DNA from: Clostridium sp. CAG:678
GTDB lineage: Bacteria > Bacillota > Clostridia > Oscillospirales > Acutalibacteraceae
DNA: 64,000 nucleotides
NCBI GenBank assembly: GCA_000431535.1
Contig: HF991811.1
Span: 1 to 64,000 of the forward strand
Reading direction: 5' to 3'
The translations under genes were made by a program, and so were the position numbers. Of this stretch, positions 45,966-61,462 are shown one piece after another. The stretch's first letter is position 1; each line of letters starts with the position of its first letter. The notes below the pieces were generated by a model. It was not told where the DNA came from. It saw nothing but the letters and a program-made list of their open reading frames with translations, and searched no databases.

Positions 45966-46146
45966 AATTTATTCTCCTGTTCCTTATATATGCCCGGCAT
46001 TCCCGCGGCATTGAGATAATCATAACATAATACTTCATATTATTCAATAAGAATATATTGAATTTTCTTTTAACAAAATCGAGATATTGTAAGTGTTTCC
46101 CAAAATGCCGGGGCGGCAGTCCTGCTGAATGCCGGCATAAAAACGA

Positions 46147-46164
46147 GCCGCCCTAACGGGCGGC
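46147..46164 (-). terminator. Terminator of the 323-residue lipoprotein gene
   Basis: Stem GCCGCCC / GGGCGGC around TAAC, followed on the minus strand by TCGTTTTTA. Confidence 0.75.
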
Positions 46165-46201
46165 CCTGGGTTTCATTCAAATTAAATTATGCTTTATATG
46201 C

Positions 46202-47173
46202 TTACGCTCTTGTGATTCCTTTTGCTTCCATAAGATACTCATCTGATGCAGGATAATGCATATCATAAGAAATATCGATAGAAGCGCTCTTGTCTTTGAT
46301 AACAAGCACGTTTGCGTGATTTACGGAAACCTGAACGGCCATATGATAATCAGCCTCTACAACCGTATTGGTTGCCGTATCTATTTTAATGGTTCCGGTA
46401 CCGCCGGAGTAATTAACAAGGCAGTTTTCAGCAGTTGTGCCGCTTGCCCAAGAAAGCTGAGAAATAGAATCTACCGTAGCGCCGATATCGCCGAGAACTT
46501 CAAAGAATCTGCCCTGGGAATCCTCGCCGCGCATGGACATGGAGCCTTCTTTCGGCTGGATGGTGATGGTAATTGTACCGTCTCCGTTATCTACTACGTT
46601 ACAAGCCTGGCAGTCTTCCGGTGTGAAATAGGACTGTCTGAAATCAAACTGACCCGGATTGGAAGCGTCACCGTTTGAATTATCAAGCAGCGGATCTCTG
46701 TTGTTGCACGGAGGAAGACCGTAAGTGCTCTTTGAGAACAATCCGCCTACAATGGTGGGAACAAGATTGTTGATTACGGAGTTTTCCTGACCTTCGATCA
46801 GAACTTTACCGATCTGAAGATCTTCTTCACCAAGAAGCGCATAGTAAGAAACCGCATTGCCGTCTGCATCGGTATAATTTGCAGTCTGAGATTTCGTGTT
46901 GTTATATGCCTGAACATAATAGTTTACAACAGAAGCCTCATCAGCAAACTCAATACCGCCGTATGTACCTGCAACAAACGGTTCGATTGTGGTTGCAGCG
47001 CCGGCATCTTCGCCTTCGCCCTCATCGGTCTGGTTCCAAGTGCCGTCCTGAACCTCTTTGATTGCCTGTATCGTTCCGTTTGTTACGTAATTTAATTTCG
47101 CACAACCTGCAAGCGAAAGCACGAAAGCAGCAACGAGAACAACACAGAGAATTGCTTTAATTGTTTTTTTCAT
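46202..47173 (-). CDS. Lipoprotein, unknown
   Basis: A 323-residue lipoprotein: signal peptide with lipobox SLAGC (Cys near residue 24), a polar Asp/Glu linker (EGEGEDAGAA), then a folded domain whose second half is strongly beta (GTITITIQPKEGSMSM, GTIKIDTATNTVVEADYH). Two cysteines (TPEDCQAC) may form a disulphide outside the cell. AAAGGGG precedes the start. Monocistronic. Function unknown. Confidence 0.7.
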   Translation of the reverse strand: MKKTIKAILCVVLVAAFVLSLAGCAKLNYVTNGTIQAIKEVQDGTWNQTDEGEGEDAGAATTIEPFVAGTYGGIEFADEASVVNYYVQAYNNTKSQTANYTDADGNAVSYYALLGEEDLQIGKVLIEGQENSVINNLVPTIVGGLFSKSTYGLPPCNNRDPLLDNSNGDASNPGQFDFRQSYFTPEDCQACNVVDNGDGTITITIQPKEGSMSMRGEDSQGRFFEVLGDIGATVDSISQLSWASGTTAENCLVNYSGGTGTIKIDTATNTVVEADYHMAVQVSVNHANVLVIKDKSASIDISYDMHYPASDEYLMEAKGITRA

Positions 47174-47380
47174 TACTTTGGTACCCCTTTCAGTACGAAC
47201 TAAGCATAATCAATTTGCTACTACTCTAATTTATTATAAAATCGACAAAAAGTCAATACCAAAAAACGGAATTAGCAAAAATTATTATCATTTCTTTTAC
47301 AGAATAAGCAGTTGTTATTTTGTTTTTTCTGTGTTATACTTGCTTTGTTAAACTGAAATCTATAGAAAGGTATGTAAAAT

Positions 47381-48094
47381 ATGAGATGCAAAAACTGCGG
47401 CTTTGATAATCAGGAAGGCAGATACATATGCGAAAACTGCGGATCCCCTTTGTTTGACGACAATGATCAGATCGTGCCGGAAGAGGATGATCCGGATAAC
47501 CAGCCCGCGCACAAACTGGATGAGCCTGATGAATCCGATGCCTATGAGGAAGACAGCGCAGAAGACGAAAAAGCAAAAAACAAAAAAAGCATTATCATTA
47601 TCATCGTGCTGGCAGTGATCCTGGTTGCCATGATCGTGGGCATCATCGTTGCCGCCGTGGTAAATAACGATGATGAAACTACAACCAATCCCTCTGTTAC
47701 CGTTACTTCCGATCTGAGCGAGACGGAAACGGAAAAAACAACAAGAAACCGGACAACGGAAAGAACAACGGAATCTACAACGGAGTCAACAACCGAGCGC
47801 ACCACAACAACCACAACGGTTGCGCGTTATACCATTTCCGTTGATATTGACGGCAACGGTTCCGTTTCAGGAGACGGAACTTTTGAATCCGGAAAAAGGA
47901 TAACGCTGACCGCCACGCCGGACACCGGATATCAGTTTACCGGATGGTATGATAATGACACGGGCGCGCAGGTTGCGTCCGCAACAAGATACACAATCCG
48001 CGTGGATTCAAACCGAAATCTGACTGCCCGTTTTGCCCCGCTGCCGGAACAGAACGAACCTACCGGAGGTACTGAGCCAAATGAGCAGGGGTGA
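47381..48094 (+). CDS. Zinc-ribbon, single-TM protein with InlB-type B-repeat
   Basis: A 237-residue membrane protein: N-terminal zinc ribbon with two CxxC pairs (MRCKNCGFDNQ, ICENCGSP), an acidic region, one TM (SIIIIIVLAVILVAMIVGII, near 67-90), a Thr/Arg-rich linker (TTERTTESTTESTTERTTTT), and an extracellular beta-grasp-like repeat (GNGSVSGDGTFESGKRITL, GYQFTGWYDND) of the InlB B-repeat type. The ribbon faces the cytosol. It overlaps the next gene by 14 bp. Confidence 0.78.
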   Translation: MRCKNCGFDNQEGRYICENCGSPLFDDNDQIVPEEDDPDNQPAHKLDEPDESDAYEEDSAEDEKAKNKKSIIIIIVLAVILVAMIVGIIVAAVVNNDDETTTNPSVTVTSDLSETETEKTTRNRTTERTTESTTESTTERTTTTTTVARYTISVDIDGNGSVSGDGTFESGKRITLTATPDTGYQFTGWYDNDTGAQVASATRYTIRVDSNRNLTARFAPLPEQNEPTGGTEPNEQG

Positions 48095-48536
48095 TAAAGC
48101 AAAAGAATACTTCTGCACAGGCAGAGGATGTTCACAGTCCGTTGCGCTTGCGTTTTGCGATAAAATGGGGCTTGATCCCGCGCTGGTTGAGAGGCAGACG
48201 ATCGGTTTCGGCGCCGGAATGGGCAGGCTCCGGGAAGTCTGCGGCACCGTATCCGGAATGACCTATGTGCTTTCCACGCTGTATGGCGATGAAGGCAAAG
48301 CCAGCGTATACGCCATGGTGCAGGAAGTGGCAAATGAATTCAAAAAGCAAAACGGATCCATCGTATGCCGGGAACTTTTGGGCATTGCAAGCGGCAAAGT
48401 CTCCCCTCCCGTTCCCGACACGCGCACACCGGAATATTACAAGAAACGCCCCTGCCCCGAGCTTTGCAAAATTGCAGGAGATATACTGGAAACATTCATA
48501 GAAAAGAAAGAAAGCGAAGCAAAAAGCAAAACTTAA
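48081..48536 (+). CDS. C_GCAxxG_C_C-family protein
   Basis: A 151-residue protein of the C_GCAxxG_C_C family, likely redox-active or cluster/metal binding. Cysteines occur in GRGCSQSVALAFCDKMG, EVCGTVSGMTYVLS, IVCRELLG and RPCPELCKIAGD; the central motif is CGTVSG instead of the usual CGA-type. GGAGGT fits the ATG at 48081. A short overlap with the upstream gene suggests translational coupling. Biochemical role unknown. Confidence 0.85.
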   Translation: MSRGDKAKEYFCTGRGCSQSVALAFCDKMGLDPALVERQTIGFGAGMGRLREVCGTVSGMTYVLSTLYGDEGKASVYAMVQEVANEFKKQNGSIVCRELLGIASGKVSPPVPDTRTPEYYKKRPCPELCKIAGDILETFIEKKESEAKSKT

Positions 48537-48632
48537 CCTGTTTTAAGCAAAAAACTCTTGCATTTTTATTTGCAATGTGGTATATTATTTGAGCGTTAAA
48601 TATACATAGGTATGTTTATGTGTGTTTCGCAT

Positions 48633-48709
48633 GCGCCGGTAGCTCAGCTGGATAGAGTGTCTGGCTACGAACCAGAAGGTCGGGGGTTCGAATCCCTTCC
48701 GGCGTACCA
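48633..48709 (+). tRNA. tRNA-Arg (anticodon ACG)
   Basis: A complete cloverleaf with acceptor GCGCCGG paired to CCGGCGT, D-arm AGCTCAGCTGGATAGAG, anticodon stem-loop CTGGCTACGAACCAG, T-arm GGGGGTTCGAATCCC and encoded CCA. ACG decodes CGN arginine codons after inosine modification. The 3' end faces an integrase gene, marking the insertion site of a mobile element. Confidence 0.95.
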
Positions 48710-48712
48710 AAT

Positions 48713-48758
48713 AAAAAATCCTTGAAACCGTTGGTATCACTTGGTTTCAGGGATTTTT
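48713..48758. terminator. Hairpin after tRNA-Arg
   Basis: Arms AAAAATCC(T)TGAAACC and GGTTTCA(G)GGATTTTT form a long stem. It ends the tRNA transcript and also lies downstream of the convergent integrase gene. Confidence 0.75.
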
Positions 48759-48846
48759 CTTTTGCCCACTTGTATATATTCTCAATGTGGGGTTTGACCA
48801 CTTATTGACCACTTATTTCGCATTATATAATCTTTTGAATCGTCAT

Positions 48847-50034
48847 TTAACAACCCATTACATTGCTGTAACTTGCTGAAAATGCCGTTTCCATTTTATC
48901 AGCAGCACCTGTTTTTAATTTCTTGGTAGCATGAACATAAGTATTCATAGTAAAACCGCAATCCGTGTGCCCAAGCATCGCAGATACCGTTTTAATATCA
49001 ACACCTTCTTCAAGTGCAATAGTAGCGCACGTGTGTCTTAAATCGTGGAACCGCACATTAGGAAGATTTGCTCTTTTCAACATTCTTTTAAGTTGCCTCA
49101 GCACAGCATTTTTATCTCTGTAAGTACCGGTTGCCGGAGACGGAAACATAAGTTTTGTCCCTCTCGCCTGCTGCTTTTTTAATTTTTCGAGAGCTTTAAC
49201 GCAACCTTTACTTATTGCTATTGTGCGAATAGATTGTCTTGTTTTCGGTGTTTCTACTTTCTGAACACCGTTTATCCGTTGAACTTGCTTATCGACTGTG
49301 ATCGTTTGATTATTTGAATCTAAATCAGTCCACTCAAGAGCCAATATCTCTCCGAGTCTCAAACCTGTTGTTAATTCAAGATAATAAAATTCAAAGCAAC
49401 CGCTGTTATACGCTTCTTCAAGCAAACGGTTGCTTTCTTCTTTTGTAAGAGTTCTCATACCCCTTTCTCTGCCCTTTGGCAGATTCAGTTTATCTGTCGG
49501 ATTTTTCACTATGATTTCTTCCTCAACCGCTTTTTGAAGAGATGCATGAAAAACGATTTTTATGGATTTAACTGTTCGTGAACTTAGCCCTTCATCCAAA
49601 TCGCTTTCCCGTTTCTTATGCACTCTGCCGTGCTCGTATACATCCATAATATACTGCTGACAAACAAGTTTTGTGAGATCCTTTAGCCTAAAATCACCGA
49701 GGAAAGGATTTATATAATTTTTAATAACATTTGCATAGCCATTCACTGTTTTTTCTTTCAAATAGCCTTTGCAATAATTGTTGATCCAAATCTCATTCCA
49801 CTCTTCAACAGTAGGATTGCTGCAATTGCCGTATCTGCACACCTTGTTTTGTTCGATTGTTTCTTTTTCTGCAATTAACTGATCTAATTTCTTTTGGCAC
49901 TCTATTTTCTTGGTGCTCATTACAGACTTGTACTTTGTTTTGCCGTTTTCGTCTTTACCTATTACGATACGGCCTTCCCATCTACCGTCTGCTCTTTTAC
50001 GAAGAGTTCCGCTTCCTTTGGCTCTTTTGGCCAT
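48847..50034 (-). CDS. Tyrosine-recombinase integrase of a mobile element
   Basis: A 395-residue Tn916/phage-type integrase: N-terminal arm-binding domain (GSGTLRKRADGRWEGRIVIG), a SAM-like core-binding domain, and the catalytic domain with Arg in LTTGLRLGEILALEW, the HxxR box in VRFHDLRHTCATIALEEG, a second His in MLGHTDCGF, and Tyr in NTYVHATKK. All catalytic residues are present, so it should be active. It ends about 140 bp from the tRNA-Arg 3' end, the probable attachment site. Confidence 0.93.
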   Translation of the reverse strand: MAKRAKGSGTLRKRADGRWEGRIVIGKDENGKTKYKSVMSTKKIECQKKLDQLIAEKETIEQNKVCRYGNCSNPTVEEWNEIWINNYCKGYLKEKTVNGYANVIKNYINPFLGDFRLKDLTKLVCQQYIMDVYEHGRVHKKRESDLDEGLSSRTVKSIKIVFHASLQKAVEEEIIVKNPTDKLNLPKGRERGMRTLTKEESNRLLEEAYNSGCFEFYYLELTTGLRLGEILALEWTDLDSNNQTITVDKQVQRINGVQKVETPKTRQSIRTIAISKGCVKALEKLKKQQARGTKLMFPSPATGTYRDKNAVLRQLKRMLKRANLPNVRFHDLRHTCATIALEEGVDIKTVSAMLGHTDCGFTMNTYVHATKKLKTGAADKMETAFSASYSNVMGC

Positions 50035-50104
50035 ATGATCATCTCCTTATCAACACGAACGATACCATACAAGTTTCTGAAAGTCCAGATAAAAATGTAA
50101 ACGG

Positions 50105-50314
50105 TTAATATCGTGAACAACCTTTGGCACTTGCCTTGATCCATGCCTGAAATTCATCACGGGGAACCACTTTTCGTCTTCCCAAAATAACAACAGGGAA
50201 ATTTTTATCCGAGTTAGCAATATCATATATTCGCGAAACGGACAAGCCTACGGTTTCCGCAACATCTCTGATGGACAGAAACATTGGCATATCTTTGTAT
50301 TCTTTATATTTCAT
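50105..50314 (-). CDS. Excisionase-like HTH protein
   Basis: A 69-residue MerR/AlpA-type winged-helix protein: MFLSIRDVAETVGLSVSRIY (HTH), then VVILGRRKVVPRDEFQAW. Short proteins of this kind upstream of an integrase act as excisionases that direct recombination towards element excision. GAGGATT precedes the start, 70 bp upstream of the integrase gene, same strand. Confidence 0.85.
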   Translation of the reverse strand: MKYKEYKDMPMFLSIRDVAETVGLSVSRIYDIANSDKNFPVVILGRRKVVPRDEFQAWIKASAKGCSRY

Positions 50315-50382
50315 ACTATTAATCCTCTTTTTTAAATTAAAGGAGATACAGATATGAATTATAATTTTGCATAATTTATATA

Positions 50383-50502
50383 TTAAATCATTATATAATC
50401 ATATCTGCATCTCAATTGGTTGTTTTGCGTGTAAGTCATATTTGCCCACGGCGCCCCTGACTGGCGGGCATACAGTAAACTAAGACCGGTTAGTCTTATC
50501 AT
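50383..50502 (-). CDS. Possible 39-residue small protein
   Basis: A short frame beginning MIRLTGLSLLYARQSGAPWA with GGTGAG 7-8 bp before the ATG. It begins 8 bp after the stop of the 34-residue frame below. I do not recognise it; it may instead be part of a structured RNA. Low confidence. Confidence 0.25.
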   Translation of the reverse strand: MIRLTGLSLLYARQSGAPWANMTYTQNNQLRCRYDYIMI

Positions 50503-50509
50503 TGGAATC

Positions 50510-50614
50510 TCACCACCCCGAGGTTCTCTCCGGGCTGCCCTCTTTGGTTGCGACGGTTTTATCACGCTCGACTTTTGACTGGACAGAAGTATCATTATCC
50601 CCGCTATCTGTCAT
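50510..50614 (-). CDS. Possible 34-residue small protein
   Basis: A very polar frame (DSGDNDTSVQSKVERDKTVA ... ending ERTSGW) in a GC-rich segment of otherwise AT-rich DNA. AGGTG lies 4 bp before the ATG, at the end of a 7-bp hairpin CTGCCGG / CCGGCAG (50622-50640) that could occlude it. I do not recognise it. Confidence 0.25.
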   Translation of the reverse strand: MTDSGDNDTSVQSKVERDKTVATKEGSPERTSGW

Positions 50615-50825
50615 CGCACACCTGCCGGAACCGCCGGCAGTTTAAAGCCAACAAACAAAGAGCCCACAAAAGCCATTGTTGTACTTAGTCTGCTTGTCCC
50701 TGTTCGTCAGAAACAATAACGGGAAAGTATTTACTGTAAGGATATTCAATTTTCAATGTTCATCGGGTCAAAAAAAATTAACCCCTTCACCTATAGCCAG
50801 AAAATCAGCAAAAAATGAGGATTTT
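50615..50825. other. Gene-free stretch left of the sigma-like gene
   Basis: Apart from the CTGCCGG / CCGGCAG hairpin at 50622-50640, I see no gene or clear regulatory site here. Confidence 0.5.
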
Positions 50826-51224
50826 TCAGAAAAGTTTTTTCAATTTTCTTTTAGCCGTTTGCAAACGATGTGAAATTGCTGACGGTTTTACTCCTTCTTT
50901 CGCCGCATATTCACTGACTGAAACGCCGTCAAAGTAGATAGCTTTTATCAATGCTTTCTGCTTGGATTTAAGCTTATTGATGGCAATATGCAAACGCTCT
51001 TCATTTGTTAGATCACTTTCACCGTTTATAATTTTTTCTATTGACGGATCTGTCACCTCCAGCCATGAACTATACGCATTATCAGCATCCAAAGAAATTT
51101 TCCGTCTAAGTTCCGAACGATCATTGCTCTGCTCGGTTTTATCAAATTCATTTAATATACCGGCCCATTTTTTATTTATTTCTATAGTGTTTTCTTCATC
51201 TGAAAACGCATATGTATATTTCAT
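50826..51224 (-). CDS. Sigma-70 region 4-like regulator
   Basis: A 132-residue protein whose C-terminal half resembles sigma-factor region 4: LHIAINKLKSKQKALIKAIY, then an HTH FDGVSVSEYAAKEGVKPSAI and SHRLQTAKRKLKKLF. The N-terminal part is not a normal region 2, so it is probably an element-borne regulator rather than a full sigma factor. The ORF runs 26 codons further upstream, but CGGAGGTC is spaced for this ATG. Confidence 0.72.
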   Translation of the reverse strand: MKYTYAFSDEENTIEINKKWAGILNEFDKTEQSNDRSELRRKISLDADNAYSSWLEVTDPSIEKIINGESDLTNEERLHIAINKLKSKQKALIKAIYFDGVSVSEYAAKEGVKPSAISHRLQTAKRKLKKLF

Positions 51225-51345
51225 ATTTTGACCTCCGATTTGGTTATTCATATTTATAATCAAATCGAAGATCAGGGATACTTGGCTATATAGCATAGCC
51301 ATATTATTTTAAAAAGCAATTTTATATTTATCTACAAAAAAAGAA

Positions 51346-51374
51346 GCCTGACTTTTCGCCAAGCTTCTTTTTTT
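51346..51374 (-). terminator. Terminator of agrD-agrB
   Basis: Stem AAAAAAAGAAGC / GCTTCTTTTTTT directly after the agrB stop; T-run in both directions. Confidence 0.8.
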
Positions 51375-51380
51375 ACAAAC

Positions 51381-51980
51381 TTATTTACTTTTCATTTTCT
51401 TAATATTTGTTATTTGTTTTATTTTGCCTGCAATGATGAGAATCGATTCGAGGATCAGACTCATACAACATGGAGCAAATAACACATTAAATCTAAAGAA
51501 ATAAGAAATAACAATGGTTCCAGTTATCACGAAAAGTATTACCCATGATATCTTGCGAAAATACTTAAATTCCTTTTCTGACAGCGGCTTTTCAGGGGTA
51601 TCCAACGGGCAAAATACTGCTATTGATATCGCTACAACGATTGCTAAACAGAGCAATACTGTATCAAAGCCATACAAATCAGACAGTCTAATAATGACTA
51701 AGCACGCAAATATAGAAAGAGTTGACATGATTTCACATCTTGCTTCCGTTTTTGCGTGATATCCGCCGGCATACCTCCTAATGAACTGGAATGCAATATA
51801 GAAAACAATGCTTTCAATAACGCAATTTAATACTAATCCAAAAACAACAGTTAATAATATAAACATTAACTGAGACAGAAGCATAAATATACCATAGATA
51901 TATAAATCTCTATCTTCTTGCTTGACAATATTAGAAGAAATTAATTTCTCCGTTATGCGCGTTGACAAATTATTTATCAT
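51381..51980 (-). CDS. agrB: AgrB-like peptide-processing membrane protease
   Basis: A 199-residue six-segment membrane protein of the AgrB family, which cuts and cyclises the AgrD precursor. Catalytic residues His75 and Cys82 lie in RRYAGGYHAKTEARCEIM, with the same 7-residue spacing as in the staphylococcal enzyme. Later hydrophobic segments follow the family pattern. Its start lies inside the end of agrD (11-bp overlap), implying translational coupling; the order is agrD then agrB. Confidence 0.9.
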   Translation of the reverse strand: MINNLSTRITEKLISSNIVKQEDRDLYIYGIFMLLSQLMFILLTVVFGLVLNCVIESIVFYIAFQFIRRYAGGYHAKTEARCEIMSTLSIFACLVIIRLSDLYGFDTVLLCLAIVVAISIAVFCPLDTPEKPLSEKEFKYFRKISWVILFVITGTIVISYFFRFNVLFAPCCMSLILESILIIAGKIKQITNIKKMKSK

Positions 51981-52119
51981 TTTCTATTTTGCTGAACTTT
52001 TTAAGTTCGGCAGGCGCTTTGGGTTGAAAAATCGAACCACAAGTTGTACTGTTTGCATTTCCTCTTAATGAAAAATGTACCATCTTTTCAAGGATAGAAA
52101 CTGCTCTTTTTTTATTCAT
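51970..52119 (-). CDS. agrD: AgrD-like autoinducer peptide precursor
   Basis: A 49-residue precursor with the AgrD plan: amphipathic N-terminal leader (ILEKMVHFSLRGNANS), central NSTTCGSIF with Cys27 for thiolactone formation, and a conserved acidic/proline tail QPKAPAELKKF matching the PKxPxEL motif of staphylococcal AgrD. The likely mature ring is Cys27-Phe31 (CGSIF), with one to four exocyclic residues. GGAG lies 8 bp upstream. Too short for many gene callers. Confidence 0.88.
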   Translation of the reverse strand: MNKKRAVSILEKMVHFSLRGNANSTTCGSIFQPKAPAELKKFSKIENDK

Positions 52120-52250
52120 AATTAATACTCCTTCACTTTATTTCTAGTGCATTTTTAAAATAGCAAATATTTTTATAAAATTCAAGTAATCTGCAAAAAC
52201 ACTTTTATACAATGAACAAAAAATGCATAATCAAACAAATTAGTTTACAC

Positions 52251-52267
52251 TATCACATTTTGTGATA
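52251..52267. promoter_or_regulatory. Palindromic operator candidate in the agr intergenic region
   Basis: TATCACATTTTGTGATA is a perfect 7-bp-arm inverted repeat. It overlaps a TTTACA-like -35 (52244-52249) and TAAATA-like -10 of the XRE gene, so it is a candidate site for that repressor. Confidence 0.6.
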
Positions 52268-52273
52268 AATATC

Positions 52274-52303
52274 TACTTATATGTTATATTATATACTTAT
52301 ATG
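52274..52303. promoter_or_regulatory. 20-bp-period direct repeats in the agr intergenic region
   Basis: TACTTATATG occurs at 52274-52283 and 52294-52303, two helical turns apart, between the agrD and XRE starts. LytTR regulators such as AgrA bind paired direct repeats with about this spacing, but the sequence does not match the staphylococcal site closely. Confidence 0.45.
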
Positions 52304-52352
52304 TGCGTTTATTTCTTAATTACCAAATGATAAAATTTTATTGGTGATAATT

Positions 52353-52673
52353 ATGGACATAAACTATAGAAATATCGGATTTAGAGTAGGTCAAAGGCGA
52401 CGAGAACTTAAATTGACACAAAAAGAAGTAGCTGAAACTATTGGTGTTACCGATAAATATGTATCTAATATAGAAACAGGCAAAAGAAAGATTAATTTAG
52501 ACTTAATTGCTGAATTTTGTGATATTTATAATGTTACTCCTGATTATTTTTTGCTTGGAAATATTCGAAAAGATATAGATTCAAATATTATTGATAATAT
52601 AAAACTATGTTCTGAAGATGATAAAAAACTTATTTATGCTATGTCTGCATTTTGTGCTCAAAGAAACAAATAA
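52353..52673 (+). CDS. XRE-family regulator of the agr locus
   Basis: A 106-residue protein: N-terminal Cro/CI HTH (RRELKLTQKEVAETIGVTDK, then VSNIETGKRKINLDLI) and a C-terminal helical part of about 40 residues that may dimerise or bind a ligand. The ATG at 52353 follows GGTGAT. It lies between agrD-agrB (divergent) and agrA-agrC, with a terminator separating it from agrA. A palindrome over its promoter suggests autoregulation. Confidence 0.85.
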   Translation: MDINYRNIGFRVGQRRRELKLTQKEVAETIGVTDKYVSNIETGKRKINLDLIAEFCDIYNVTPDYFLLGNIRKDIDSNIIDNIKLCSEDDKKLIYAMSAFCAQRNK

Positions 52674-52693
52674 TATATTTGACAAATGAAATG

Positions 52694-52734
52694 AAAATGC
52701 TGTAAACTCTATTTGAAGAGTTACAGCATTTTTT
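52694..52734 (+). terminator. Terminator between XRE gene and agrA
   Basis: AAAATGCTGTAA / TTACAGCATTTT stem (with a further ACTC / GAGT part) and TTTT, ending just before the agrA ribosome site. agrA-agrC may depend on readthrough or an internal promoter. Confidence 0.8.
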
Positions 52735-52749
52735 GTTGGAGATGATTAT

Positions 52750-53448
52750 TTGGTTATTGCAATATGTGATGATGAGCAGGAATTTATAAATGACATCAGA
52801 AAACATCTTAAACAATATTCATCAGAGCACGGATTAACATTTGAAATATATGAATTCTGTTCCGGTGCAGATATTTTATCAAGCAAAATTGTGTTCGACA
52901 TTGCATTTTTGGATATTGAAATGAAAGATATAAACGGAATTGAGGTAGGAAGAAAACTACAAAATGAGAATCCCGATTTAGTTCTGATTTATGTAACTGC
53001 GTATAATCAATATCTTGATGAAGCTCTTGACCTTGGTATTACCAGATTTTTTGATAAACCAATAGACAGTCAGCGGTTTTACGAAGGAATGGACAGAGCC
53101 GTTTCCAAAGTGGATAATACCGAAATTAAATTTTATTTAAAAGATGATAATAAAGGCGTTGTAACTGTTCGCTGCAAAGATATAATTTTTGTAGAGATCC
53201 AGGGCAGAAAAACCGAAATACATACAAAGGAGCATGATTATCTTTCAAAAGACGGAATCAAGGTTTGGAAAGCGAGATTAAATAAATCTTATTTTGAAAT
53301 TCCACATAACAGTTATATAATTAATACAAATTTCATTACTTATTTTTGCAAAGAATACGTGATTCTCGACAATAAATACACCATCCCTATTGCTTATTCC
53401 AAAAGAGCGGAATTTAAACGGAAATTCATGAAACTTATGGGTGACTGA
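52750..53448 (+). CDS. agrA: AgrA-like LytTR response regulator
   Basis: A 232-residue regulator: receiver with acidic ICDDEQ, phospho-acceptor Asp55 in AFLDIEMKDINGIEVG, and DKPIDSQRF, followed by a LytTR DNA-binding domain (FVEIQGRKTEIHTKEHDYLS, PHNSYIINTNFI). The start is TTG with GGAG 9 bp upstream. It is phosphorylated by the AgrC-like kinase encoded 2 bp downstream. The gene order agrA-agrC is the reverse of the staphylococcal order. Confidence 0.9.
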   Translation: MVIAICDDEQEFINDIRKHLKQYSSEHGLTFEIYEFCSGADILSSKIVFDIAFLDIEMKDINGIEVGRKLQNENPDLVLIYVTAYNQYLDEALDLGITRFFDKPIDSQRFYEGMDRAVSKVDNTEIKFYLKDDNKGVVTVRCKDIIFVEIQGRKTEIHTKEHDYLSKDGIKVWKARLNKSYFEIPHNSYIINTNFITYFCKEYVILDNKYTIPIAYSKRAEFKRKFMKLMGD

Positions 53449-53450
53449 CT

Positions 53451-54761
53451 ATGATATCAAATTTATTTTTCCTGTTCATATATATTGTTGAAGCGTTCAT
53501 TGCTTTTATGTATTTTTCTGATAATTATGAGAAAAAGCTTAAACCGTGGATTTCAATACTGATATGCTGTGCCTTATATTTTTTTGCTTTTATAATCAAT
53601 ATTATGGGCAGCAATAATGTTTTAATTAATTTATTCGTGTTTTTGGTTATTAATATCATTTATGCAATGTTGAGCGTGAACATTACATTTTTAAGCGCAC
53701 TTTTTCACTCTTCGATACTTCTTGCTTTAATGTTTTTAACTGAAGCAATTGTTCAGGCAATTTCCTCATTTATCCTCAATATTCCATTAGACGCTTATAG
53801 GGATAGTTTATCAGCATTGATCATAATCGGAATTATAAGCAAAGTGCTTTATCTGATGGTAAGCAAACTGATATCAATATTGTTTTCTTATAAAAATAAT
53901 AATGTTTCCAAAGAGGTTAAGAAAAATTTTGCCTTATTTTTGTATCCGATCATCATCACTGTCATGCTTGCGCTTTTTCTATATACATCAACAATTTATC
54001 AGTTTTCGGAAAAATTGCACATAATCTTTGCCGTAATAAGTATGGTTTCACTTGTATTTTGCTGTTTAATATTTATTATCAACCAAAGAATCCAAAAGCA
54101 AGAAGCAGAACTTGTTACTTTGCAGGCAGAGAACCAAAAAAATGAAATAAATAAAACCTTTTATGAATTGTTGGAAAAGAAAAATGACGACCAGCGCATA
54201 TTGGTTCACGATATCAAGCATCATTTTGCTGTGATCAATTCCATGCAGAATATTAATGATGTAAAGCAGTATCTTTCAAAGATAGAACCTGAATTTGATG
54301 AATTTAATTACATAGGCAAAAGCAAGAATAAAATGCTTGATCTTATTTTAAGTAAATATTCACATATCTGCGAAAATAATGATATAAATTTTACGGTTGA
54401 TATAAGAAGTTCAAATTTGAGTTTTATAGCGGGCAATGACTTAACCTCTATGCTTTCTAATCTACTTGATAATGCTGTTGAAGCAGCAAAAGATTCAGAT
54501 GGTGCCTTTATAAGATTTACAACAAGAAAAGAAAAAAATTTCGTTATTTTAAGTGTAGTAAATAGTACATCTGCTGCTCCTAAATCGCAGGGTGAAAAAT
54601 TGATTACCACAAAAAAAGATAAAGCAATTCACGGATACGGATTAAAAAGTATAGAAAAATCCGCTAAAAAGTACGCCGGTATCTGTGATTGGAATTATAA
54701 TGAAAGCGATAAAACTTTTCACTTTAACATCATATTTAACAACATCAACATTTCGGGTTGA
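53451..54761 (+). CDS. agrC: AgrC-like GHKL sensor kinase
   Basis: A 436-residue kinase: about six to seven hydrophobic segments in residues 1-205, a coiled-coil-like linker (QKQEAELVTLQAENQKNEIN), the phospho-acceptor His253 in LVHDIKHHFAVINSM, and a GHKL ATPase with N-box MLSNLLDNAVEAAKD and C-terminal HGYGLKSIEKSAKKYAG. This is the AgrC plan for sensing a cyclic peptide. It closes the sensing half of the locus and ends at a terminator. Confidence 0.9.
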   Translation: MISNLFFLFIYIVEAFIAFMYFSDNYEKKLKPWISILICCALYFFAFIINIMGSNNVLINLFVFLVINIIYAMLSVNITFLSALFHSSILLALMFLTEAIVQAISSFILNIPLDAYRDSLSALIIIGIISKVLYLMVSKLISILFSYKNNNVSKEVKKNFALFLYPIIITVMLALFLYTSTIYQFSEKLHIIFAVISMVSLVFCCLIFIINQRIQKQEAELVTLQAENQKNEINKTFYELLEKKNDDQRILVHDIKHHFAVINSMQNINDVKQYLSKIEPEFDEFNYIGKSKNKMLDLILSKYSHICENNDINFTVDIRSSNLSFIAGNDLTSMLSNLLDNAVEAAKDSDGAFIRFTTRKEKNFVILSVVNSTSAAPKSQGEKLITTKKDKAIHGYGLKSIEKSAKKYAGICDWNYNESDKTFHFNIIFNNINISG

Positions 54762-54783
54762 TTTCAATCAAATATAGTTTATG

Positions 54784-54818
54784 ACATCACTTCTTTTCAT
54801 GGAAGTGATGTTTTTTTG
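54784..54818 (+). terminator. Terminator of agrA-agrC
   Basis: A perfect 10-bp stem ACATCACTTC / GAAGTGATGT followed by TTTTTTT. Confidence 0.85.
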
Positions 54819-54846
54819 TATCAAAATGATAGTATTTTTGCATTTT

Positions 54847-54875
54847 TTAACAATTTCCGTTTTCCATATGATAAT
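54847..54875 (+). promoter_or_regulatory. Promoter of the small lipoprotein gene
   Basis: TTAACA (54847-54852), 17 bp, GATAAT (54870-54875), just after the agrC terminator. It starts the cargo region. Confidence 0.6.
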
Positions 54876-54917
54876 TTATAAATATCTAGTGCAAAAAAGA
54901 TTTAAGAAAGGATGATT

Positions 54918-55406
54918 ATGAAAAAGGCTACAATTTTGTTTTTATGTATTTTGTTATTAGTGTGTAGCGCATGCTCTAAAACGAACACTGATATCGAAAA
55001 TACAACGGATGTCGATACAGATTCGACATCTGCAGCAGTTGATACTTCGGAAAGCAAAACACCGGATACCGATATATCCGGAATATATTTCAACATCTTC
55101 GGAAGCGAATATGAAGTTTCTGTTGATAATGAAACGCTTGAAATACTGAAATCTGCTGAAACGGCTACCGAACCGCTTGCAACATCTTTGTCTTTAGATG
55201 AAATAGGCACTGTTTCAATTACATATAAAGATGAGGACGCCAAGCAGGAATTCGGAAAAGTATTTTTAAACGGTTCCGATATATATATTCAAAGTAATGA
55301 AAATGAATATGGAGCCGTTGTAAAATTTTACTCTTTTAATCAAGGATTTGATTCGGATAAAGGACCTCAAAGTGTATTCGAATCAATATATGGAAATATT
55401 AATTAA
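54918..55406 (+). CDS. Small lipoprotein, unknown
   Basis: A 162-residue lipoprotein: signal peptide KATILFLCILLLVCSAC with lipobox VCSAC, a Thr/Asp/Ser-rich linker (TTDVDTDSTSAAVDTSESKT), then a compact domain of about 105 residues (IYFNIFGSEYEVSVDNETLE ... FYSFNQGFDSDKG). The second ATG of an ATGATTATG start is chosen for spacing to AAAGG. The next gene begins 18 bp after the stop, suggesting co-transcription. No family recognised. Confidence 0.75.
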   Translation: MKKATILFLCILLLVCSACSKTNTDIENTTDVDTDSTSAAVDTSESKTPDTDISGIYFNIFGSEYEVSVDNETLEILKSAETATEPLATSLSLDEIGTVSITYKDEDAKQEFGKVFLNGSDIYIQSNENEYGAVVKFYSFNQGFDSDKGPQSVFESIYGNIN

Positions 55407-55424
55407 AATTGAGGAGATGTGTAT

Positions 55425-58400
55425 ATGATAAAAAACGGTAAGAAATTTATCTCCGCTCTTCTTGCTGTTGTTTTGATAACAACAGTGTTCCCGATAAGCA
55501 CATACGCTGCTGAAACGGAAGATTCAGATGATATTCAGGTTTCAGAAGTTGAAGAATCGCGCGATCTGTATTCTAAAACTTATGAAACATCTCAAGGTAC
55601 TAATGTTGTTATTTCAACAGCCGTACCTATGCACTATGAAGAAGACGGGGAACTTAAGGATATAGACAACACTCTTGTGGAATCGGATGCAGACAATTCC
55701 GTTTTAACCAATACAGCAAATGCATATAATGTTGAGTTGCCTGAAAAATATACAGACGATTCCGAGATTAAACTTAATTATGAAGACAACACCATCAGTT
55801 TCAAACTGCTCAATGATGTAAACTCAAGCAACGGCACCGTAATCAGCAATGATGAAACTGATGTTGATAAAACTGATGCGGAAAGTGTGGCATACGCAGA
55901 AAGTAATATAAATTCTTTGACTTCAGGCATCACTTATGCTGATGTTTTGCCTGACACAGATGTTGAATATAATGTTCAGCCGAATTCACTTAAGGAGAAC
56001 ATTATTCTCAGCGATGTGCCTGATGAAGATTATGCCATTCAGTATGAACTTGATACGGCCGATATGTCCGCTGTTTTGAATGATGACAATTCCATTTCGG
56101 TTGTTGATGATAACAGCAATAAAGTATTCATTATAGCAGCGCCTTATATGGTGGACGCTAACGATAATGTCAGTGAAAGTATAAATGTGTCTTTTGAGGA
56201 AAGTGAAAACGGATATATCCTTACCTATTCTCCGGATTACACATGGCTTACAGATGAGGATACGACTTATCCTGTAAATATTGACCCGACAGTCACGATC
56301 GTAAGCAATAAGGCAAATCAGAATATTGAGGATACATTTGTTACGACTACTACCAAAACAAAGAATAAATCTACAATGACAACTGTAGCGGTTCAGAATT
56401 CATCATCACAAAGTTGGGGATATTATAACATTAAGACTCTCCCCGAACTTCCTGATAACGCTAAGATAACGAATTGCACACTTAATCTGTTTACTACAAC
56501 GGATGTATACGACCCATACAGTCTGGCAATGTATGCACTTCCCGAAGATGCGCAGGTTAATGACGATTATATCTCAAAAGTTAATTGGAATAACAAGATC
56601 GAGCCAACAGATGTGGCTATTGATCTTCAGATAACACCTGAAAATCCAAATCAGATTTACTTTGATATAACCAACTTGGCAAATAAGTGGTATCAAAATA
56701 ATGACCTTAACAGGATCCTTGTTCTTAAAGCTCTTGACGGAACTCTTAAGACAACGATTGCTTCCAGTGAGTATACTATTTATGCAAACAGGACACCGTA
56801 TCTTTCATTGGAATACAATACAGTTGGTGGGCTTGATTCAAACTCTCAGTTTCACATTCAGAATGCCGGCATAGCAGGAACCGCTTATGTAAATGATTAT
56901 ACCGGTAACCTCGTTATAGAGAGAACTGATTTCAGTTCCAACGGTTCTATGGGTGATCTTACATTCTATATGGGCAAAGGAGTAAACACTCCTGAAGGCA
57001 GTTGGCTTGGTGATAATGTTTCCGTTAATTATTATAAAACATTGATGGTTGACAGTGTCAATGACGATTCAGAATATGTACTGACTTATGGTGACGGCAC
57101 TAAAGAGTATATTTCTGATGGCGAAAAATATACTATAGATCATTCTGAAGAAACTTTAATAAATATTTCATACACTCAAGATAGCAGTGTTGTTAATGAG
57201 TCTTATTCATCGGCAGTGATTTCGGAAAACAGCGAAAAAAATATTGAAGATCGCATCTTTGCTCTTGTAGAGAAAAGTACAACAAAAAATGCAAAAGCAA
57301 ATCCTGATGCAAATTCTTCAACTGTTACAGTTACATATGCTGACGATAAAATCACACAAATAGCAGATGAAGTTGGATATACAGAATTTGGTTATGCCGA
57401 TGGTATTATTAATAGTTTGGCAAGTTTTCCTGATTTTGACGATGAAAGTGTAAATAAGCAAGATTGTGAAGGTGTCGGACAGTTAACTTCATACTATACG
57501 GATAATGGCGTTAGTTTATCGATAGATTTAAATGAAGATGATACAGGTTATCCAATACAAAATATAACTTATGACTATGCAAATTCTGGTAATATCACTA
57601 AAATAACTAACCAAACAGATTTATCATATGAATACACTTACAATGACAATGATCAAGTTATTAAAGTTCAGGAATATTCGACTGACAGCACTGCCGGTGA
57701 GTATCTAACATTCAGTTACGGAGCAAATACTACCACTATTTCTGACGGAACAAATACATACACTGAATATTTTGACCTAAGCGGAAAACTTATGTCTGTT
57801 ATTGATCAGGACGGAAACGCAGTATTTGCCCAGTATAACGGTGACCTTATTTCAAAAGTATCTGCCACAAGAAACAGCGCAAGAAATATTGCTGATTTTT
57901 ACGGATTTGAAAGCAATAAAGACAGTTTCTTCAATACGGAAAACGGTTATGTTGGCATTTCATCGGATGCTAAGTTCAACGGAAACTCATCCGTTAAACT
58001 TACAACTCCGGCGCAAGTCAACGCTGTTTATACGAATAAGATAAACGGGCTTGAAAAGAATTCCACATACACAGTTTCAATGTGGCTTAACCAGCCGGCA
58101 TCCGCTAACGCATCGCTGACTCTTACAAACGGAGACTCAAGTGGAATATTTACAACTGCAAATGCGCAGAATGCGGAAGGTTGGCAGCAAGTGTATTGCA
58201 CTATTGATACTGAGGACAGTACATATATAAATGTGTCAGTATCTGTTGATAACAGCACTTCATCAGCAGAAACCGCAATATATATCGATAATATGTATGT
58301 TCAGCAGTCACCCTATCTAACTAATGTTAATCTTCTTAGCAACAGTGATTTTGCTGACTTATTAAATGGCTGGTCAACAAATGCAAATAGTTCCGTTGTT

Positions 58401-61400
58401 TCTGAAGACGCTGTTATTTCAACCGCGGATAATAACAGATTGAAAATTACTGGCGATTTTTCAGCGGAAAATTCTATTTCTCAGACAGTATCTATCACTG
58501 CCTCGGAAGGAACTAAGTATACATACGGCGGCTGGATAAAGGCAGTGAACGCTATACCTGAAAAAGACGGCACAAACAGAAAACTCGGATTTTCCGTATA
58601 TGCTGTTTCCGCTGACGGCAGCAGTCAAGAACTGCTTTCCGAAAATACCTATTCAACATATTATTCAGATTGGCAGTATCTTGAAGACGAGATTACTCTG
58701 CCCGCTGACTTCGGTCACGCAGGAGATACATATTCGGCTCTGAAATTTGTAATTAATTACGATTATCAGATGGGATATGCGCTATTTGACGGCGTTTCAC
58801 TTGCAAAAGATGAATTGTTTACTTCCGAATTTGAATACGATGAAGACGGTAATATGATTGCGATAACCACAGGCGAAACTACAGTGTCGGTTAAAGATTC
58901 AAATGAAGATACAGACCATTCTTTGGCAGAAACTACATACACATATGATGATTACGGCAATATTACCGGTATAACAGAAACAGCTACAGTAGATGATGTA
59001 GCAAGAGATATTGTTTCCAAGTTCGAATACGGCAACAGCGGATCTCTTCTCACCAAAGAACTGACGCCTCTTGGACGCTGGACAACATATGAGTATGACT
59101 ATTTTGCCAATGTAGCAAGAGTAACTGATGCTAACGGTAACACAGTCGACTACGAGTATGACAACTTTAACAATCTCTCTGGCATCATTAGTGAATTCGA
59201 GAATAAATACATTCAATTCAATGACAGAGAGTCTCAGTCACCTGAAGTATATACTATGAAGGTCCAGTATACATATTCCGGCGACAGGTTGGATAAAATT
59301 GAAACCGGCAATATTGAGGATGATGAGTTCGTTCCGTTCAATACTTATGCCTTTGAATATGATAATTGGGGTAATTTGGAAAACATATATATTAATGACA
59401 TGGATGACCCGTATGTTCATTATATATATGATGGAACTGATTATCGTAGAATTAATTCCATCGAATATATTAACGGTCAGGAAATCAATTATGTATATGA
59501 TGATGAAGGCAACATTATATATAAATATGATACTAACAATGCAGACGGTGACACGCTTTCATACAGTTACTACTATTATGACAACGGCACTTGTTACGGC
59601 AAAAAAAATAACATAGCCGGCACAATTGAGTCATATCAGGATGGTTTAACTTCCGTAAAGGATATGGACGGAAATGTTATCCATGTTTACGGCTATGATG
59701 AAGATGGAAATTTACTTGAGCAGATAGGAAATAATTTTGTAAAGATCAGCAAAACCTCTGACGATAGTACATCACAACTTTCATCTACTGTCAACAACAG
59801 TGAAACTGTAATATCAACAGAATATGATGATTTCGGAAGAGTTATTTCGGAAAAGATTCAGGCTGAAGGCACATCGTCATATATTCTCCGGGAATATACA
59901 TATTATGAAAATGAAGAAGAAATGGACGAAGCGATATCCAGTATTAGTAATATTATTACCGGAAATGAATTAGAGGAAATAGACACAGATGTAGACTCTA
60001 CAGATCTTGTAAGGTACTTAACATACTACTCAGTAGATGAAAACGGGAATAAGGAAGTCATCGAAGAATACAGATATCTTTATTATGCCAATGGGAAAAC
60101 TTTGTCATATACGGTATCCCCAGTTTCCGGTGGAGACATATTTGATGTTGAATCCATAGTTTTAAATGCTTGTAATGAAGCCGGAATGGCAATGGGCGGT
60201 ACTGGTACTTTATTTGAATATGATAAATATGGCAATATAATAAAAGTTTACGAAAATTCCGATGAACTTACACCGTATATCGACCTTTCATATGATTCTG
60301 AATCGAATACTGCTTTAAAAAATCTCCTTACCGGTTTTACATTAAGAAATATAAATAACGAGGATTTTGATTTTAATATTTCTTATGATGAATTTGGTAA
60401 TATAAGTAAAGTAGAAACAGAAGATCTTACTAGTGAAATGGCGAACGGGGTTGGAACAATTCGTTTCTCTGGCGTTGATTTGAACTGGTCCAGAGGTTCT
60501 ACTTTAACGAATATTACCGGCAATATAGATATTTCATTAACGGATTTACCATTAGTCTCATATCCAATTTCAGTTGATCTGTTCGACTATAAATATGATG
60601 ATAATAATCTCAGAACAAATAAAACCATCAATTTGTCTTTGGACAGTATACCAACTTCAATTCTTTCCGCGTTAGGAATATCCGAAGAAGAGGCAACTCT
60701 TGCAAAAGCGGATATTGATTATATTTGGAGAGACGGACTGCTTGCCGGCATTAATGTTGACTGCAATGGAACTCTGTTTGATGAAGGAAATGTTACTCAC
60801 GGTAATGGCGGCGGCAAATATAGTATTGTTATTCTCTATGATGAAAATAACAATGCCTATGGTCTGGTCGTAAATAAAACGGAAGACGCAGACGGAAACG
60901 CCGTTAATGAAACGAACACTTTCTATTACATGAAAGATGCAGATAATGTTATAACAGCCATAATTGATGAAAATGGCAAAGAACTTGTTTCATATGGATA
61001 TGACAACAATGGTGCCGTTATGTCTTTGAATAATGCTGATGGATACAGATATCTTATGCTTTTAAATCCTCTTGCATACAAAGATTCGGTATATGATATT
61101 GAGAGTGGCCTGTATTATCTTGAATCCAGGTATTATGAGCCTTATCTCGGCAGATTTATAAGCCCGAATTCGGTATTGGATACTGGTTCTGATTCTGTTA
61201 TGTGCACGAATTTGTATTCATATTGTGAGAATGATCCTGTAAATAATGTTGATCCTTCTACAGGCACCAATACAGTCAATAGTAACATCATTACTAATAA
61301 TGCCGCTGATATAGTTCTTCCATTTAAGCAAGTCGATTCCGATTTGTCAAAATTTTGGAATACGGAAAATATGCTGCCACAACAGAAATACGGAACATAC

Positions 61401-61409
61401 CTTTGGTAA
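55425..61409 (+). CDS. Giant secreted DNRLRE/YD-repeat (RHS-like) protein
   Basis: A 1994-residue secreted protein. Order: signal peptide (FISALLAVVLITTVFPISTY), a region of about 250 residues, a DNRLRE domain near residues 280-465, two jelly-roll carbohydrate-binding-like regions near 822-960 and 968-1132, many YD repeats (for example TTYTYDDYGNITG, FEYDNWGN), and an RHS core near 1890-1915 (GLYYLESRYYEPYLGRFISP). Only about 50 residues follow NDPVNNVDPSTG and no toxin domain is recognisable; no immunity gene follows. The start follows GAGGAG; an in-frame GTG two codons earlier is less likely. It may be an adhesin or a toxin-delivery shell that has lost its cargo. Confidence 0.88.
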   Translation: MIKNGKKFISALLAVVLITTVFPISTYAAETEDSDDIQVSEVEESRDLYSKTYETSQGTNVVISTAVPMHYEEDGELKDIDNTLVESDADNSVLTNTANAYNVELPEKYTDDSEIKLNYEDNTISFKLLNDVNSSNGTVISNDETDVDKTDAESVAYAESNINSLTSGITYADVLPDTDVEYNVQPNSLKENIILSDVPDEDYAIQYELDTADMSAVLNDDNSISVVDDNSNKVFIIAAPYMVDANDNVSESINVSFEESENGYILTYSPDYTWLTDEDTTYPVNIDPTVTIVSNKANQNIEDTFVTTTTKTKNKSTMTTVAVQNSSSQSWGYYNIKTLPELPDNAKITNCTLNLFTTTDVYDPYSLAMYALPEDAQVNDDYISKVNWNNKIEPTDVAIDLQITPENPNQIYFDITNLANKWYQNNDLNRILVLKALDGTLKTTIASSEYTIYANRTPYLSLEYNTVGGLDSNSQFHIQNAGIAGTAYVNDYTGNLVIERTDFSSNGSMGDLTFYMGKGVNTPEGSWLGDNVSVNYYKTLMVDSVNDDSEYVLTYGDGTKEYISDGEKYTIDHSEETLINISYTQDSSVVNESYSSAVISENSEKNIEDRIFALVEKSTTKNAKANPDANSSTVTVTYADDKITQIADEVGYTEFGYADGIINSLASFPDFDDESVNKQDCEGVGQLTSYYTDNGVSLSIDLNEDDTGYPIQNITYDYANSGNITKITNQTDLSYEYTYNDNDQVIKVQEYSTDSTAGEYLTFSYGANTTTISDGTNTYTEYFDLSGKLMSVIDQDGNAVFAQYNGDLISKVSATRNSARNIADFYGFESNKDSFFNTENGYVGISSDAKFNGNSSVKLTTPAQVNAVYTNKINGLEKNSTYTVSMWLNQPASANASLTLTNGDSSGIFTTANAQNAEGWQQVYCTIDTEDSTYINVSVSVDNSTSSAETAIYIDNMYVQQSPYLTNVNLLSNSDFADLLNGWSTNANSSVVSEDAVISTADNNRLKITGDFSAENSISQTVSITASEGTKYTYGGWIKAVNAIPEKDGTNRKLGFSVYAVSADGSSQELLSENTYSTYYSDWQYLEDEITLPADFGHAGDTYSALKFVINYDYQMGYALFDGVSLAKDELFTSEFEYDEDGNMIAITTGETTVSVKDSNEDTDHSLAETTYTYDDYGNITGITETATVDDVARDIVSKFEYGNSGSLLTKELTPLGRWTTYEYDYFANVARVTDANGNTVDYEYDNFNNLSGIISEFENKYIQFNDRESQSPEVYTMKVQYTYSGDRLDKIETGNIEDDEFVPFNTYAFEYDNWGNLENIYINDMDDPYVHYIYDGTDYRRINSIEYINGQEINYVYDDEGNIIYKYDTNNADGDTLSYSYYYYDNGTCYGKKNNIAGTIESYQDGLTSVKDMDGNVIHVYGYDEDGNLLEQIGNNFVKISKTSDDSTSQLSSTVNNSETVISTEYDDFGRVISEKIQAEGTSSYILREYTYYENEEEMDEAISSISNIITGNELEEIDTDVDSTDLVRYLTYYSVDENGNKEVIEEYRYLYYANGKTLSYTVSPVSGGDIFDVESIVLNACNEAGMAMGGTGTLFEYDKYGNIIKVYENSDELTPYIDLSYDSESNTALKNLLTGFTLRNINNEDFDFNISYDEFGNISKVETEDLTSEMANGVGTIRFSGVDLNWSRGSTLTNITGNIDISLTDLPLVSYPISVDLFDYKYDDNNLRTNKTINLSLDSIPTSILSALGISEEEATLAKADIDYIWRDGLLAGINVDCNGTLFDEGNVTHGNGGGKYSIVILYDENNNAYGLVVNKTEDADGNAVNETNTFYYMKDADNVITAIIDENGKELVSYGYDNNGAVMSLNNADGYRYLMLLNPLAYKDSVYDIESGLYYLESRYYEPYLGRFISPNSVLDTGSDSVMCTNLYSYCENDPVNNVDPSTGTNTVNSNIITNNAADIVLPFKQVDSDLSKFWNTENMLPQQKYGTYLW

Positions 61410-61462
61410 CTGTTAAAAAACGATTTTATAATTAAAAACTGATTTTGAAAGGAGTGTTGTTT

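Follow-up and report, generated by a model that had tools for sequence, protein, structure and literature searches.

The present analysis concerns an agr-type quorum-sensing locus in the window, this being the entire stretch of 64,000 nt of Clostridium sp. CAG:678 that was analysed (assembly GCA_000431535.1, contig HF991811.1, positions 1-64,000), in which a gene for a regulator of the XRE family is placed between two divergent arms, agrD-agrB and agrA-agrC (Table 1). The module seems to be carried by a mobile conjugative element, and a giant secreted RHS/YD-repeat protein encoded beyond agrC is probably switched on by it. The reading that we favour, to which a probability of roughly 0.65 is assigned, is that of an agr cassette on an integrative and conjugative element (ICE) in which AgrA, triggered by the peptide, switches agrD as well as the RHS cargo, while the XRE protein sets the sensing threshold.

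The original prediction for this DNA placed agrD and agrB leftward and XRE, agrA and agrC rightward, an arrangement borne out by gene calls and profile matches, with all five genes being intact. In an alignment of 19 AgrB proteins the invariant residues include H75 and C82, which we take to be the catalytic pair by correspondence with AgrB of Staphylococcus aureus. Judged by its proteins, the locus is an agr quorum-sensing system that differs by its layout, its XRE gene and its setting. It comprises the same four protein families as agrBDCA of S. aureus, from which it differs in gene order, divergence and the presence of XRE; a single operon of the agrBDCA type is absent, and, considering that operon layout also varies in other clostridia, the divergent arms were not used to exclude membership of agr. 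The gene order had been called reversed, which holds with respect to staphylococci but not as a novelty, since the orders A-C and D-B are known from Clostridioides difficile: strain R20291 has the order agrA, agrC, agrD, agrB, termed the reverse of S. aureus by the authors (in the parts of PMC3754575 used here). This agr2 system (agrACDB) resembles the window in having AgrA upstream of AgrC, AgrD upstream of AgrB and an AgrA of the LytTR type, and differs in that a single transcript was inferred by its authors (same parts of PMC3754575), whereas the window has divergent arms, an intervening XRE, an integrative element and RHS cargo. Gene order itself is thus not new; the divergent split and the XRE gene are new against C. 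difficile. The wider surroundings, namely the integrative element, RHS cargo and repeats of the AgrA type, had no part in the original prediction.

The set searched for AgrB consisted of the genome of the window and 97 related ones (98 in total), only 19 of which contain it; 32 AgrB rows were obtained, of which 29 were fetched (including that of the window and another copy from its genome) and 3 weak ones were left unfetched. At 21 of the 29 agrB places a divergent XRE gene lies between the arms (20 classified loci plus L100, whose AgrB is interrupted by a contig end), the others being six co-directional loci, one divergent locus without XRE and one that was unclassified. The conditions named beforehand as refuting the original prediction were thereby examined, and it survives: XRE is linked to agr among relatives, in which AgrB and AgrC are conserved. 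In a wider named collection of 80 agr loci, partly overlapping with these 29 places, 28 have their arms separated by a divergent XRE (with agrC ahead of agrA in L154, L163 and L172), 31 are co-directional and 7 are of another layout or truncated. The XRE sequences are diverse, with 25-58% identity to that of the window (20 aligned); their position is constant all the same.

Pairwise identities were compared for the 32 loci having all four genes and different AgrBs. Those of XRE follow the identities of AgrA (r=0.61) and AgrC (r=0.63) and hardly those of AgrB (r=0.14, Mantel p=0.048; partial correlation given AgrA, -0.24). The proposal of XRE as a gate for peptide production as well as sensing is not supported by this comparison, nor by the promoter-like box of agrA's own and the weak operator candidate (see below); the picture of XRE as a master switch of both arms is corrected to one in which the data link XRE to the sensing arm. 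Because physical linkage and recombination between the arms could yield the same correlation, XRE is described here as tied to the sensing arm, its regulatory role being unproven.

A promoter-like box for agrA follows the XRE stop codon in this group of related loci (Fisher p=3e-12 over 20 loci), reaching p<=0.05 in 12 of 20, a count that includes L090, the best box of which lies further downstream. Folding downstream of XRE has a z score of -2 or lower in 17 of the 20 loci. The terminator that had been predicted between XRE and agrA is present in the window as a hairpin with its T run; in the second module of the same genome (L012) the 3' arm of the hairpin covers a GGAGGGG sequence ahead of agrA and has no terminal T run. 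Both forms would keep XRE messages from making AgrA, with agrA-agrC being transcribed from their own promoter. A palindromic XRE operator had likewise been proposed; the palindrome exists, yet it is only marginally above shuffled sequences and is not general. As a general feature it was rejected (p=0.07 in the window; Fisher p=0.32 over 19 loci, L092 being left out of this test; the exceptions are L075 and L090, p=0.015 each), and it is kept as a weak candidate. L074, nearly identical to L012, was excluded before counting.

The link with RHS was assessed from the Rhs cores found in 33 of the 98 genomes. At 10 of the 29 agrB places such a core lies within 12 kb (a radius chosen by us), where coverage would predict 0.63 (Poisson p=1e-9). 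Nine of these ten loci are divergent and XRE-linked, with the RHS gene or a large open reading frame (ORF) on the agrC side and co-directional with agrC, while the tenth, L099, is a co-directional agr. No toxin domain was detected in ten RHS C-termini (250 aa each, from nine loci; Pfam E<=0.05), where RHS repeats were matched in three (one above cut-off), unrelated families below cut-off in two and nothing in six; therefore, the protein is termed RHS/YD only, and not a toxin. The lipoprotein-like gene ahead of it matched no Pfam family, and homologues of the subtilase after it also follow RHS in L089, L100 and L101.

Direct repeats of two equal blocks at a fixed period are typical of LytTR regulators. 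Such repeats were sought by expectation-maximisation, as pairs of equal 9-mers spaced with a period of 20-23, upstream of agrD in 20 loci, where the motif likelihood is 66, compared with 30.5 +- 4.3 in 20 shuffles; when single periods from 11 to 40 were tested, 21 peaks at 72, the runner-up being 54.6. The stretches separating agrC from a next gene that looks secreted (13 of 26 loci, picked by eye; of the remaining 13, three have no co-directional next gene and ten were left out) show a separate peak at 21-22 (54.0 and 57.6; next 44.8). The joint motif of the agrD and cargo regions is approximately GCATTTTTG, occurring twice, with a likelihood of 107 against 33 +- 3.7. In the window, the cargo box is the top site in 48601-62000, and one equal site (12.8) is present in the 48.6 kb to the left of that range.

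Integrase genes closely related to that of the window are found near agr in L078 (689 bits), L089 (671) and L122 (636). The integrase adjoins tRNA-Arg(ACG) in the window, L078 and L122, while that of L089 has no adjoining tRNA; in a tRNA scan of 11 loci, L078 and L122 were the only agr loci with tRNA-Arg beside an integrase, none being found in L077, L089, L093 and L096. The genome that contains L122, G098, has a contig on which the tRNA end is repeated exactly at 84476 and 140631; these copies bound 56 kb containing int, agr-XRE and RHS, followed by genes for a VirD4-type coupling protein, a MobL relaxase, a VirB4-like ATPase and TrbL. A third exact core copy at 144486, with a second integrase in between, is interpreted as marking where another small island ends. 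The contig of the window ends at 64412, and elsewhere in its genome the attachment (att) core is present as exact 48 bp copies on contigs C32 and C14 and as a 28-bp fragment with which C20 begins. Of the 46 ORFs on C20, 17 have matching proteins in the G098 element, with order and orientation preserved throughout, and an RHS fragment is present at the opposite end of C20. The sum of 15.7 and 40.4 kb approximates the size of the G098 element. The element of the window may accordingly be read as complete, with C20 supplying its right att end. An attempt to place this junction through the relative G029 was dropped in favour of G098, which has both ends on one contig, as no clear order emerged when the G029 flank was mapped to C36 and C20. 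Exact 15-mer searches for att repeats gave one 15-bp match each in L215 and L216/L217, and none in L218.

A different view of the XRE protein is as the maintenance repressor of the element, with agr making ICE excision and transfer dependent on carrier density instead of controlling cargo. ICEBs1 is reportedly an ICE carrying both peptide signalling and an XRE regulator (RapI-PhrI/ImmR), its peptide and receptor families differing from those of agr; the Xre regulator of ICEBs1 (PDB 7t8i) is the third best match of the window XRE (E=3e-6), and agrDB is directed toward xis and int, all being co-directional. A strong hairpin terminator after agrB nevertheless separates these genes, XRE is also present in agr loci with other neighbours and without RHS, and no site of at least 10.5 precedes xis or int in the site scan, a weak argument as the agrD site itself fails this threshold. 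An ImmA-like partner was not noticed, no search aimed at ImmA having been made. Such a role of ImmR type is judged unlikely.

Less likely still, and in our estimate quite improbable, is that host chromosomal genes are the main target of the locus, in the manner of staphylococcal agr, and that it is found on an element only incidentally. Agr systems elsewhere do control large regulons. For C. difficile, this is seen in RNA-seq data (parts of PMC3754575). Because AgrB is restricted to 19 of the 98 genomes, however, it is unlikely that a core regulon of the host depends on it, and in G098 agr lies between the att repeats.

A number of observations weigh against the favoured reading. The agrD-only matrix applied to the cargo regions gives p<=0.02 in only 5 of 13 (Fisher p=1.3e-4), the motif is rich in T, and the loci are related to one another. 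The agrD repeat of the window taken by itself is not significant (leave-one-out p=0.11) and scores 7.7, below the listing threshold of at least 10.5 of the site scan. Of the four best sites in the G098 element, only one is that of RHS, the other three being unexplained. Palindrome statistics leave the XRE operator unsupported, one of the ten Rhs cores (G045, L078) is under the family cut-off, no match to the G098 element was obtained for the first 8.4 kb of C20, which adjoin the att piece, and the join between the window's contig and C20 lies outside the observed sequence. Lastly, 14 of the 80 wider loci, including Ruminococcus bromii L129, L139 and L165, are divergent with no XRE match between the arms. 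This last point, together with the other neighbours of several agr-XRE loci and with the linkage that common residence on islands would by itself produce, favours a view of agr and RHS as mere co-residents of a variable cargo region, in which AgrA has no control over RHS and XRE is carried along as a dispensable passenger. We hold this to be improbable, given that RHS occupies a fixed side (after agrC, co-directional and one or two small genes away at most), that the same kind of direct repeats precedes agrD and cargo as a set, and that the co-variation of XRE with AgrA and AgrC speaks against a passenger.

According to the favoured reading, in which an agr cassette on an ICE switches agrD and RHS cargo, the signal arm would consist of AgrB, which would cut and export a small cyclic peptide from AgrD (predicted ring CGSIF), and the sensing arm of XRE followed by AgrA and AgrC, these being expressed from their own promoter and shielded by the hairpin from XRE transcription. 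At a high density of element-carrying cells the peptide would activate AgrC, leading to phosphorylation of AgrA, which would then bind the candidate direct repeats ahead of agrD (positive feedback) as well as those ahead of the cargo next to agrC, i.e. the lipoprotein-like gene and that of the giant RHS/YD protein. The XRE protein would most likely repress its own promoter region and so set the threshold of the sensing arm.

Table 1. Features of the agr module and its surroundings in the window (E, profile match; z, folding score; strand "." where neither applies).
Feature	Position	Strand	Basis or remark
tRNA-Arg(ACG), integration site	48633-48709	+	ARAGORN; 48-bp att core 48664-48711
Tyrosine integrase of the element	48847-50034	-	PF00589 E=9e-27
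Excisionase-like helix-turn-helix (HTH) protein	50105-50314	-	HTH_17, phrog_66; homologues near agr in L078, L089, L122
Sigma-70 region-4-like protein	50826-51302	-	PF08281 E=2.5e-7; phrog_11138
Terminator hairpin 3' of agrB	51340-51370	-	-17.9 kcal/mol, z=-6.5
agrB, pheromone-processing membrane peptidase	51381-51980	-	PF04647 E=6e-39
agrD, pheromone precursor	51970-52119	-	TIGR04223 E=1.2e-5, exceeds family cut-off; adjoins agrB
Candidate AgrA (LytTR-type) direct repeat upstream of agrD	52194-52224	-	Two-block motif of 20 loci, spacing 21
17-bp palindrome TATCACATTTTGTGATA, weak XRE operator candidate	52251-52267	.	Dinucleotide-shuffle p=0.07
XRE-family HTH regulator	52353-52673	+	PF01381 (HTH_3) E=2e-14, scanned from alternative start TTG 52341
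Candidate agrAC promoter TTGACA-N18-TAAACT	52679-52708	+	Begins 6 nt past XRE stop; window p=0.005
Terminator-like hairpin overlapping agrAC promoter -10	52693-52733	+	-19.3 kcal/mol, z=-5.3 (z=-4.7 in other test), T run after
agrA, LytTR response regulator	52750-53448	+	PF00072 (REC) and PF04397 (LytTR)
agrC, GHKL sensor kinase	53451-54761	+	PF14501 (GHKL ATPase) E=1e-20
Terminator-like hairpin 3' of agrC	54783-54812	+	
Candidate AgrA box GTTTTTTTG-N13-GTATTTTTG ahead of cargo	54810-54840	+	Overlaps T run of preceding hairpin; leave-window-out p=0.001
Small lipoprotein-like cargo gene	54912-55406	+	One homologue among annotated loci, same place in L094
Giant RHS/YD-repeat protein, 1996 aa	55419-61409	+	PF05593 E=1e-17, TIGR03696 E=1e-16; N-terminus leader-like by eye
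Subtilase with BspA-type leucine-rich repeats	61445-64000, runs off window	+	PF00082 E=8e-43

The predicted ring residues of the window's AgrD precede QPKAP, and the five-residue extent of the ring is assigned by analogy with known AgrD peptides. From 33 loci, being those extracted and not every locus, 31 different five-residue cores were obtained, of which 24 start with Cys, 5 with Ser and 4 with Thr. At the position of the usual ring-closing Cys, AgrD of L086, L093, L096 and L135 has Thr, and that of five other loci Ser; pheromones closed as lactones through Thr would be unusual if real. Three of the divergent loci in which no XRE separates the arms (L132, L134 and L149) have an XRE match beyond agrC and AgrD cores with Ser. 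In L165 (R. bromii ATCC 27255) AgrD has Gly for Cys and the AgrB match ends at residue 79, while 5AMG (L139) has Cys; L165 is perhaps a decayed agr copy. The second agr-XRE module in the window's own genome, L012 (7192-10561, G000:C10), has the same layout and the core CFILN; it adjoins PrgI and VirB4-like conjugation genes, and ABC-transporter and radical-SAM-like genes were noted by eye among its neighbours. Four XRE-linked agr copies with four different cores are present in one genome, G047.

The end of tRNA-Arg looks like an integration hotspot, with other integrases located there in G029 and G032. The att-core copies on C14 (L014, 4757-5321) and C32 (L013, 10549-11040), beside an integrase remnant and in a tRNA-fragment repeat, respectively, were taken, on inspection by eye, for the termini of other islands. 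Rfam matches in 46000-64000 were restricted to a tRNA and a pemK RNA motif (RF02913, 74 bits; 50499-50598, minus strand) between the excisionase-like and sigma-like genes, with no search being aimed at an RNAIII-like RNA.

Agr genes on a mobile element are also known from agr3 (agrC, agrB, agrD) of phage phiCDHM1, which differs in being a phage instead of a conjugative element, in that no response regulator was found and in the lack of an XRE among the three named genes (in the parts of PMC3901668 used here). AgrB relatives were obtained from 11 phage and 18 plasmid records; of the four phage records and one plasmid record examined, L210 has the present layout, L212 and L214 are divergent without XRE, and L211 and L213 are co-directional. 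L210 (MT835851.1, "Bacteriophage sp.", human faeces) displays exactly agrC-agrA-XRE // agrD-agrB, differing in an AgrB of 28% identity and an AgrD core with Thr, its record being unannotated and marked unverified. Ruminococcus phage NatCom_29429 and Monoglobus pectinilyticus similarly have agrA-agrC diverging from the agrB arm, but with no XRE match and with an agrD-like ORF after agrB. Among viral contigs, 53 pattern matches were obtained, none of which was confirmed. Among the titles and abstract beginnings listed by searches of open-licence PubMed Central papers, none describes an agr locus that includes an XRE regulator or cargo of the RHS kind, and a term search of PMC3482391 returned no agr words.

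If the favoured reading is true, mobile elements of gut Clostridia own quorum sensing with diverse pheromones and control of large secreted proteins, which would provide a testable handle on communication and competition among uncultured gut Clostridia, as well as many new cyclic peptides, some perhaps being lactones closed through Ser or Thr. More tentatively, and with considerable doubt, a family of conjugative elements of gut Clostridia may possess private quorum channels, nearly every element with its own pheromone (in some cases Thr-closed, as in the four loci named above), an XRE-set threshold and an AgrA-switched giant RHS protein, by which carriers would be counted and armed together in an element-borne form of kin recognition.

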